In this document: piece after piece, positions 22,953-24,691 of the stretch
Layout: each line of letters begins with the position of its first letter
Position numbering within the stretch: position 1 is the stretch's first letter
Program-made: the position numbers and the translations under genes
Assembly: GCF_032484785.1 (NCBI RefSeq)
Contig: NZ_JAUETR010000001.1
Coordinates: 620,001 to 684,000, forward strand
Source: Bradyrhizobium sp. SZCCHNS1050
Lineage (GTDB): Bacteria > Pseudomonadota > Alphaproteobacteria > Rhizobiales > Xanthobacteraceae
Length of the DNA stretch: 64,000 bases
Reading direction: 5' to 3'
The notes under the pieces: generated by a model
Seen by the model: the letters and a program-made list of their open reading frames with translations, nothing else
Told to the model about the DNA's origin: nothing
The model's database searches: none

Positions 22953-23840
22953 TTAAGCCGTTGCGGCGAGTTCGGCGGCAGTCTTTCCGATCTGGGTTTC
23001 GTCGACGGCCTTCATGATGCCGTGCTCCATCAGCATGTCCTCGAGCTCGTCCATCGTGATCGGGGTCGGGATGATGCCCTTGCCGCCGTTGTTGTGGATC
23101 TTCTGCGCCAGCGAGCGGTAGTGCCCGGCCTGGACCGAATCCGGCGCATATTCCAGCACGGTCATGCGGCGCAGCTCGGCGTGCTGCACGATGTTGTCGC
23201 GCGGCACGAAGTAGATCAGCTGGGTGCCGAGCTTCTTGGCGAGAGCCTCCGCCAGCTCCAGCTCCTTGTCGGTCTGACGCTCGTTGCAGACCAGGCCGCC
23301 CAGGCGCACGCCGCCGGAATTCGCATATTTCAGGATGCCCTTGGAGATGTTGTTGGCGGCATACATCGCCATCATCTCGCCGGACATCACGATGTAGATC
23401 TCCTGCGCCTTGTTCTCGCGGATCGGCATCGCGAAGCCGCCGCACACGACGTCGCCGAGCACGTCGTAGGACACGTAGTCGATGTCCTCGTAGGCGCCGT
23501 TCTCTTCCAGGAAGTTGATCGAGGTGATGACGCCGCGGCCGGCGCAGCCGACGCCCGGCTCCGGACCGCCGGACTCGACGCAGCGGATGTCGCGATAGCC
23601 GACCTTCATGACCTCCTCGATCTCGAGGTCCTCGACGCTGCCGGCGGCAGCAGCCAGGCTCAGGATCGTGTCCTGCGCCTTGGCGTGCAGGATCAGGCGG
23701 GTCGAATCCGCCTTGGGGTCGCAGCCGACGATCAGGATCCGATGACCCATCTCGGCGAGCGCCGCGAGCGTGTTCTGCGACGTCGTCGATTTGCCGATGC
23801 CGCCCTTGCCGTAGAATGCGATTTGTCGAAGTGATGACAT
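22953..23840 (-). CDS. nifH: Nitrogenase iron protein, copy 1
   Basis: 295 aa, identical in sequence to the second copy at 51175-52062. P-loop GKGGIGKST (residues 11-19), cluster cysteines in PGVGCAGRG (Cys99) and DVVCGGFAM (Cys133), and the ADP-ribosylatable arginine next to Cys99 (Arg102). The true start [14 protein letters not shown] follows GGAGAGCAGA. This copy is not next to nifDK: it heads a nifH-nifQ-regulator transcript and is divergent from a receiver-like gene. It provides Fe protein for electron transfer and cofactor maturation. Confidence 0.97.
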
Positions 23841-24030
23841 TCTGCTCTCCATCAACCGATTGCCAATGTCGCGCCCGCGCTGCTCGCGAGGCGTGACCGC
23901 GTCCTCTGTGTGTCCGAACCGGCAGACGGGTTGTTGGGAAGGAGAGCATCGCTCGTCCGGAGCGTCGGCGTGCACTCAGCCCTCAACCATTGCCTGAACC
24001 CGGTTTTGCAACGGCTGTGCCAGCACGCGC
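22957..24030. repeat. nifH duplication, copy 1 (about 1.1 kb)
   Basis: The nifH coding region, its leader and its sigma-54 promoter recur at about 51179-52250 in the same orientation. The coding part is the same base for base wherever I compared it; the leader has scattered differences and short indels. Confidence 0.9.
24007..24022 (-). promoter_or_regulatory. nifH: sigma-54 promoter of nifH copy 1
   Basis: TGGCACAGCCGTTGCA (minus strand), a textbook -24/-12 element, 167 bp before the ATG, leaving a long leader also present in the second copy. Confidence 0.9.
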
Positions 24031-24091
24031 ACAGGGCCAAAACGATCATGTTTTAAAGGAGATGCGGAGCAATCCGGGCGCGATTGCGAGT

Positions 24092-24107
24092 TGTTGCAAA
24101 CCCGACA
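24092..24107. promoter_or_regulatory. NifA site 1, nifH1/receiver intergenic region
   Basis: TGTTGCAAACCCGACA (TGT-N10-ACA), 70 bp upstream of the nifH1 -24 element. A counterpart exists before nifH copy 2. Confidence 0.75.
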
Positions 24108-24143
24108 TCGGAATGCTTCGCAAGATGCGACGACGCGCGGCGC

Positions 24144-24159
24144 TGTCCGAAACGACACA
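24144..24159. promoter_or_regulatory. NifA site 2, nifH1/receiver intergenic region
   Basis: TGTCCGAAACGACACA is TGT-N10-ACA and lies between the divergent nifH1 and receiver promoters. The same 16 bases occur before nifH copy 2. Confidence 0.75.
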
Positions 24160-24189
24160 ACAGCGGTAGCTTTTCAGCCGGGCGGTGCC

Positions 24190-24205
24190 CGGAACGAGAT
24201 TTGCT
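24190..24205 (+). promoter_or_regulatory. sigma-54 promoter of the receiver-like gene at 24260
   Basis: CGGAACGAGATTTGCT keeps GG-N10-GC and the TTTGCT -12 box. It lies 54 bp before the ATG, and NifA site 2 is only 30 bp upstream. Confidence 0.65.
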
Positions 24206-24259
24206 AGATCCCCTCTGCAGCCCTGCGGCACAGACGCTGACAACGTTGAGGAGGATGCA

Positions 24260-24691
24260 ATGCAGATCGGAGTGGAGACGGCCAAGGCAGTGGACCAGCG
24301 GCGCGTGTTCGTGATCGACGACGACGAGATCACGCGCGCGGCCCTGCAGTTCATGTTGCACGATGAAATCGAGACCCACGAATTGGCGACGCCGGAGGAG
24401 GCGTACGAGAAGGGCGTCGACTGGCTGGCACCGAACGTGGTGCTGCTCGGGGTTTCCTTCCTGAAGCAACGCGGCCCCGAGCTCGTCCGCGAGATCCTGG
24501 CGAAGTTCAAGGGCGTGCGCATTCTGATCGTGACCGCCAAGGCCGACGAGGCGATCGCGATCGAAGGTCTCAAGGCCGGCGCGCATGGCGCCGTGGTCAA
24601 GCCGCTCACGATCGAGGCGGTGCGCAAGAAGGTCGACACCATTCTCGGCCGCGCCGGCGGCGCGCAGCTGGTCCAGCTCGGCGGTGCCTGA
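24260..24691 (+). CDS. Single-domain pseudo-receiver protein divergent from nifH1
   Basis: 143 aa, one CheY-like receiver domain and no output domain. Strand 1 ends in the acidic pocket VIDDDE (about residues 18-23) and the conserved lysine is in VVKPLT. The phospho-acceptor position reads VVLLGVSF: a glycine replaces the aspartate expected after VLL. AGGAGG precedes the ATG. A paralogue with the same substitution stands beside nifH copy 2. It is likely a non-phosphorylated protein-interaction module induced with nitrogenase; target unknown. Confidence 0.8.
   Translation: MQIGVETAKAVDQRRVFVIDDDEITRAALQFMLHDEIETHELATPEEAYEKGVDWLAPNVVLLGVSFLKQRGPELVREILAKFKGVRILIVTAKADEAIAIEGLKAGAHGAVVKPLTIEAVRKKVDTILGRAGGAQLVQLGGA

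Follow-up and report, generated by a model that had tools for sequence, protein, structure and literature searches.

In Rhodospirillum rubrum, a DraT/DraG module (with DraB) lies divergent from nifH, the gene for the nitrogenase Fe protein. Single receiver domains that act without phosphate are also already known. In the accessible parts of the two reports, FixT (Caulobacter, Sinorhizobium) is a single unphosphorylated receiver in the feedback loop of an oxygen-related cascade and Osp (Rhodobacter sphaeroides) is a response-regulator-like single domain working by direct contact, and each inhibits kinase autophosphorylation without phosphorylation of its own (PMC7078487, PMC9430884). Here we analyse a stretch of 64,000 nucleotides from Bradyrhizobium sp. 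SZCCHNS1050 (contig NZ_JAUETR010000001.1, positions 620,001 to 684,000; the window), in which two single-domain pseudo-receivers, A and B, are each encoded divergently from a copy of nifH, and we describe the protein family to which they belong.

A scan of GTDB genomes matched 208 relatives, the best 80 of which were examined as loci. Together with eight copies from the source's order and the window's own, these loci give a set of 89 A-like proteins, near-copies kept in (genomes and loci carry our own G and L numbers). The receiver resembles the R. rubrum module in standing divergent from nifH, and draT and/or draG follow it in 7 of the 80 loci. It is, however, neither an ADP-ribosyltransferase nor a hydrolase, and some of the genomes that carry it gave no DraT. 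In Pfam at E ≤ 1, A and B match PF00072 alone, which spans nearly their full length, and are thus receiver domains without an output domain rather than DraT (PF07357) or DraG (TIGR02662) proteins. In contrast to these receivers, FixT has FixL as its target and lacks the acid pair before α1 in the accessible text, whereas A-like proteins keep the first acid (82 of 89) and have lost the phospho-aspartate instead; Caulobacter FixT also has four cysteines, where A and B have none. Osp likewise lacks this acid pair, and differs further in its target, CckA, in keeping D51 and in having no link to nif in the accessible text (PMC9430884).

Two further comparisons concern the genes themselves. Azorhizobium caulinodans carries nifH in the same two settings as the window, nifHDK (AZC_1041) and nifH-nifQ (AZC_3443), although receivers are absent from the accessible table rows of that report (PMC2443382), which cites a paper whose title refers to functional differentiation of the two nifH copies. 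In the literature searched, which covered few subscription papers, we saw neither the family nor its function described, and only nrf3 resembled a member. This 426-bp gene, from a nif cluster on fosmid DX-1A-14, is listed as a 'two component response regulator' with a sigma-N site beside the globin gene nrf2, and is closest to Herbaspirillum seropedicae (59-60%; PMC3912193). Judged by this description, nrf3 is very likely a member. It is tabulated there among many nif-associated genes, and the accessible text has no remark on a function, nifH, a missing phospho-aspartate or a family.

Two divergent units and their control regions

The first unit is covered entirely by positions 22953 to 24691. 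In this unit nifH1 (22953..23840, minus strand; 295 aa, the same protein as that of nifH2) is followed by nifQ, a label taken from its translation, and has a -24/-12 element at 24007..24022 on the minus strand (TGGCACAGCCGTTGCA). Receiver A (24260..24691, plus strand; 143 aa; PF00072, 5.2e-16) has an element of its own at 24190..24205 on the plus strand (CGGAACGAGATTTGCT), and two upstream activator sites of the NifA type, TGT-N10-ACA, lie at 24092..24107 and 24144..24159. In the second unit nifH2 (51175..52062, minus strand) is the first gene of nifHDKENX, where the nif labels beyond nifH are our own, and its -24/-12 element is at 52224..52239 on the minus strand. The activator sites of this unit, again TGT-N10-ACA, are at 52309..52324 and 52359..52374, and receiver B (52512..52904, plus strand; 130 aa; PF00072, 1.4e-12) is preceded by an element at 52448..52463 on the plus strand (CGGTACGGAGTTTGCT).

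These features confirm the arrangement that a preliminary description of the window had proposed for both places, and the receiver-side elements are exactly as quoted there. The order and both NifA sites are indeed kept, at near-equal spacing from the nifH promoter: the site centres lie 79 and 131 bp from the nifH -24 GG in unit A and 79 and 129 bp in unit B, within gaps between nifH and receiver of 419 bp and 449 bp, respectively. TGT-N10-ACA occurs 21 times in the window, so that two per 400 bp corresponds to a Poisson probability of about 0.008 per gap. When each gap was compared with 100 single-base shuffles of itself, the receiver-side -24/-12 element gave p = 0.01 (A) and 0.03 (B). DNA similarity between the units runs from the nifH stop to the second TGT-N10-ACA site and ends there.

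The same anatomy was evaluated in 71 gaps, comprising 69 loci with divergent nifH and the two window units; p-values are approximate, being based on single-base shuffles. A receiver-facing GG-N10-GC was present in all 71 (p ≤ 0.05 in 67 and ≤ 0.1 in 70), commonly in the form YGGAACG-N4-TTGCT, and nifH's own -24/-12 element reached p ≤ 0.05 in every gap. At least one TGT-N10-ACA was found in 66 gaps and none in 5, with a mean of 1.66 vs 0.08 in shuffles. Both window receivers thus have the anatomy of the NifA regulon, an upstream TGT-N10-ACA with a -24/-12 element, and as far as promoter anatomy goes this supports the earlier proposal that the receivers would be induced along with the Fe protein. 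The earlier label 'NifA-type pseudo-receiver' holds for the pseudo-receiver and for a NifA-type promoter, but not for a NifA-type protein, as no NifA family is among the matches listed for A and B (best 25 of 75 and 25 of 64, respectively, in NCBIfam; PF00072 only in Pfam). A paper on rpoN RNA-seq in DOA9 reports nifH and does not name the receiver in its accessible text (PMC13207237).

Receiver domains without a phospho-aspartate

The AlphaFold model of A has an ordinary receiver fold, with a mean pLDDT of 83 and low values in both tails. Its structural matches are CheY/PhoB-like receivers, and the comparison returned no solved structure specifically related to A. Neither window protein has the aspartate at the β3 site that marks a phosphorylatable response regulator. 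The position is glycine in A (Gly64, in VVLLGVSFL) and in B (AVLIGMSIL), whose acidic pocket is more eroded. The same column reads G 70, A 12, S 4 and D 3 in the 89 A-like proteins, with all three aspartates coming from one family of the source's order (f31), and is glycine in all 14 B-like proteins; in 29 distinct sequences found by similarity, not by motif, it reads G 24, D 4 and S 1. The pocket lysine is kept in 86 of 89 A-like and 8 of 14 B-like proteins, and the first pocket acid is D in 80 and E in 2 of the 89 and E in 14 of 14 B-like proteins.

A and B share 34% identity over 120 aa. They are mutual best paralogues in the source genome (3e-17 vs 8e-8 for the next match with A as query, 2e-17 vs 1e-8 with B), a gap of about nine orders of magnitude for both, and B matches the receiver-A family by profile with an hhalign probability of 99.4. 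All traits of the proposed family are found in A: divergent nifH, its own -24/-12 element, a non-Asp site, MQIGV and FML-D---E-H. B is likewise divergent with its own -24/-12 element and a non-Asp site, but it is without the N-terminal motif and its α1 has diverged, so that its placement is by profile and tree. An origin from FixJ/FixL was considered and rejected: FixJ (NF006900) is the best NCBIfam match of both receivers, but its scores, 45 and 46 bits, fall far below the cut-off of 255, and neither protein has a second domain in Pfam. Furthermore, when the source genome is searched with A, a FixJ-like protein (L007, assigned by eye) comes only seventh, after B and OmpR-like receivers.

Receiver A gave dN/dS values of 0.017-0.067 when compared with four closely related Bradyrhizobium copies and of 0.10-0.24 with eight that are more distant, and receiver B gave 0.10-0.20 in five comparisons, two of them with the same copy; dS is high in several comparisons, which makes the values rough. 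These ratios indicate that A is under purifying selection. Given that the phospho-site is lost, the proteins most likely act independently of phosphorylation. The same values bear on the idea that the receiver has no function and is a relic riding with nifH owing to the conserved shared promoter region. This might account for the eroded pocket of B and for the broken A genes found beside nifH in eight nodC-positive genomes, but the selection values contradict it, as do residues invariant across three classes, and we regard it as barely credible and close to refuted.

Among 49 rows of less than 88% identity, the best-kept regions are the N-terminal MQIGV, β1/α1 (RALQFMLHDE-ETHE) and α5 (E--R-KVD--LGR), and α3 and α4 are variable. 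As two motifs used for retrieving the 80 loci include α1, its conservation is inflated there; however, the FML-D---E-H pattern of α1 is present in all 29 sequences retrieved by similarity. Receivers present an α1/α5 face to kinases. The conserved face could therefore indicate a feedback brake on nif transcription, in which the NifA-induced pseudo-receiver, in the manner of FixT or Osp, would dock through α1/α5 on a histidine kinase of the nitrogen or oxygen cascade (NtrB/NtrY-like, or FixL in genomes that have it) or on NifA/RNA polymerase-sigma-54. Consistent with this, five Methylocystis-type loci have a receiver copy upstream of nifA. On the other hand, of 16 genomes with the receiver only 7 have a FixJ match over the cut-off (nine stay under it, although 15 of 16 have a weaker match), which makes FixL unlikely as a universal target. 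The retained first acid sets the family apart from FixT and Osp, and no kinase was noticed beside the receiver in maps searched only for the window's own genes. We consider such a brake possible but doubtful.

Spread, duplication and retention of the receivers

The receiver-A family is present in alpha-, beta- and gammaproteobacteria, in methanotrophs and cultured strains among others, and many carriers are metagenome bins. Carriers include Methylocystis, Methylosinus, Methylocella, Methylocapsa, Rhodoblastus, Hyphomicrobium, Azorhizobium, Xanthobacter, Bradyrhizobium, Telmatospirillum and Acidiphilium, as well as Sulfuricella, Sulfuriferula, Methyloversatilis, Methylococcus, Methylocaldum and others. 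A divergent nifH lies within 1.5 kb of the receiver in 69 of the 80 loci; five were ended by a contig edge and six are without it, five of these being the Methylocystis-type loci with nifA downstream (L122, L124, L125, L126, L127). In these five the next gene is globin-like, and four of the five genomes have a second family locus. Among 72,556 plasmid records, the sole match at E ≤ 1e-15 was NZ_CP070492.1 of Methylococcus sp. EFPC2, which has the same gene order. The receiver is annotated there as 'response regulator', and the record's 'phosphorelay' label is contradicted by the missing phospho-aspartate. A class-wide profile search gave G823 (4e-61) as the sole clear member outside the source genome, followed by a match at 4e-16; matches at E 1e-9 to 1e-13 were taken as ordinary receivers and not used.

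In the source's order, outside the source genome, there are 13 specific loci, 12 of them divergent from nifH (L048-L059); the thirteenth (L014, in G098) sits where a contig ends, and no nifH was found for it, and a B-type copy in G549 is additional to the 13. The receiver was present in 12 of 13 genomes with a full-length nifH at least 87% identical to that of the window, and in none of 51 other nifH genomes, which gave only weak matches to receivers elsewhere in the genome; in one of the 51 nifH is partial, at 87% identity. Neither set includes G401, which has the receiver but whose nifH is at a contig edge. These counts indicate that the receiver follows one nifH lineage.

The two units had been suggested to stem from an old duplication of a nifH-plus-receiver unit. 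This is supported by the receiver tree, in which B-type copies form 12 of 64 rows on one side of a 100/100 branch, and by the mutual best matches of A and B; the B branches are long, and the position of the root is uncertain. As B-type copies occur not only in Bradyrhizobium but also in G549, which belongs to another genus of the same family, the duplication predates that genus split. In the order-level maps outside this family, a single nifH is paired with a single receiver wherever the mapped stretch reaches that far; Methylocystis-type genomes carry two receivers, though in other contexts. The nifH copies of the window are 99.9% identical, with an identical block of 914 bp (22957-23870) and one differing base near the stop, which would hint at a recent duplication. 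The nifH pair is 100% identical in G106, 99.9% in G017 and G549 and 94-99% in five others, and the window copies have 90-96% identity to those of other genomes. Identity within genomes exceeds that between genomes in 7 of 8 genome pairs, which rules out a recent duplication; the exception is G178/G161, with orthologues at 98.2-98.6% and paralogues at 96.4-97.2%. The identities indicate that the nifH pair, but not the receivers, was homogenised later by gene conversion, with similar homogenisation in G017, G106 and G549.

Retention was evaluated in 195 Bradyrhizobium genomes, of which 124 have nifH, 105 have nodC and 103 have both. The 58 receiver rows, less 15 of B type and one that is the second fragment of a broken gene, leave 42 A-type rows, 36 of them beside nifH. 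The other six comprise G065 and G175, at contig starts, G157, where nifH is cut by a contig end, and G098, G037 and G073, where no nifH was found. With an intact A defined as at least 130 of 143 residues aligned and no stop, and remnants below E 1e-12 counted as absent, A is kept in 18 of 21 nodC-negative nifH genomes (16 beside nifH, plus G065 and G175) vs 12 of 103 nodC-positive ones, counts that ignore kinship. Among the other nodC-positive genomes, eight have a broken A beside nifH, four have B only and 79 of the 103 have neither at the thresholds used. In five of seven clusters with a broken A gene beside nifH (L100, L109-L114, nodC-positive), fixA was matched only as fragments.

Eleven nodC-positive genomes have two nifH copies. 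In G056, G095, G111 and G122 one nifH has A beside it and the other has no receiver. In G095 and G122 the copy with A is on a different contig from nodC and the second nifH, and in G056 it is more than 4 Mb from nodC; for G111 nodC cannot be placed from the contigs. The rest have A and B (G161), broken A and B (G017), B and nothing (G047, G106) or nothing (G019, G043, G096). The expectation that close relatives carry the receiver beside nifH is therefore borne out in 18 of 21 nodC-negative genomes and in other classes, but not in the 79 nodC-positive genomes with neither type. This mixed presence is a pattern of life style, which the preliminary description had not foreseen, rather than plain absence.

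Neighbouring genes and a proposed role

Receiver A is adjoined by a gene for an ArsC-like nitrogenase-associated protein (24693..25112, plus strand; TIGR01616, 1.2e-46, over cut-off), with which it is probably co-transcribed, and downstream of receiver B is a gene for a SufE-like protein (52947..53411, plus strand; PF02657, 3.8e-46). Across the 80 loci, within the flanking sequence available, a TIGR01616-like gene is downstream in 40, and in 33 of 80 it is within 700 nt on the same strand; ankyrin proteins are downstream in 29. Six loci have draT and six have draG, with three draT (PF07357) and one draG (TIGR02662) confirmed by family models, and in L195 the TIGR01616-like gene comes after draG. 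In the source genome draT-draG is away from nif (L216 6981-8852, about 3.407 Mb), and inspection by eye of the surrounding ORFs showed no receiver. An integrase-like gene, again by eye, is some 1.5 kb from this pair. DraT was not found in G178 and is present in G161. Elsewhere in the window, 39636-40250 encodes a 204-aa protein without a Pfam match that by eye resembles the protein after the receiver in Methylococcaceae (L160, L152) and possibly belongs to a nif-linked family that we leave without a name.

Some neighbours would suit redox, oxygen or Fe-S protection, with the receiver fold as a scaffold or small-molecule sensor working with nearby globins, SufE, 2Fe-2S and glutaredoxin proteins. 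A globin-like gene directly follows the receiver in seven loci and another globin type is present in four, a group II truncated hemoglobin is encoded on the Methylococcus plasmid NZ_CP070492.1, SufE lies beside B and in Methylocystis-type loci, and methanotrophs are among the carriers. However, without a cysteine neither A nor B can have Fe-S or thiol chemistry of its own, and the neighbours differ between lineages where nifH and the promoters hardly do. We judge this role improbable.

Our tentative preference is for A and B as NifA-induced, phosphorylation-independent adaptors acting on nitrogenase after translation. They would be made together with the Fe protein from the shared NifA/sigma-54 control region and, having no phospho-switch, their dose would be set by NifA. 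Action would be by protein contact through the conserved face, namely the N-terminal MQIGV tail, α1 and α5. The most likely target would be post-translational nitrogenase control, either the Fe protein itself or a DraT/DraG/ArsC-like module, where the receiver, as an adaptor, would serve to switch off or protect the Fe protein under worsening conditions. The preliminary description had allowed for the Fe protein, NifA or a partner as target. The draT/draG and TIGR01616 neighbours make us lean towards nitrogenase itself, although the conserved face points as much to a kinase-like partner. After the duplication in Bradyrhizobium, A (beside nifH-nifQ) would have kept the ancestral form and B (beside nifHDK) drifted to a second role. 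Nodule symbionts fix nitrogen in a buffered, host-controlled setting, and would tend to lose A; judging from its retention, the receiver probably helps to run nitrogenase outside nodules.

Several observations weigh against this proposal. Of 23 genomes carrying the receiver, several of them drafts, only 8 gave a DraT (7 of 16 in one set and 1 of 7 in another), which rules DraT out as the obligatory target or partner. The copies upstream of nifA in Methylocystis-type loci fit a transcriptional role too. In G048, G084, G089 and G135 (loci L092, L095, L097 and L093) nifH2 has been lost and B still faces nifD, which means that adjacency to nifH is not strictly required. Three nodC-negative nifH genomes are without A (G013, G093, G181), in seven nodC-positive genomes the sole nifH detected has an intact A ORF next to it, and, as the family follows one nifH lineage, kinship could explain part of the life-style pattern. 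In G013, G093 and G181 nifH is at 91% identity, and their nif clusters may derive from symbiont lineages.

A bolder form of the proposal, which we hold to be conceivable though unlikely, is that the receiver is an overlooked third partner of the Fe protein. Having given up phosphorylation, and produced in step with NifH, it would bind NifH or its ADP-ribosylation machinery and gate nitrogenase after translation in free-living alpha-, beta- and gammaproteobacteria, would have been shed by symbionts once control passed to the plant, and would have gained a second, diverged gate by duplication in Bradyrhizobium. nifH is among the most-studied genes in microbial ecology, and this receiver stands across its promoter in three proteobacterial classes under database names that, among the matches listed, are only 'response regulator' or similar. 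The family bears on the means by which organisms lacking DraT throttle nitrogenase, and on what to keep when nif clusters move into new hosts.

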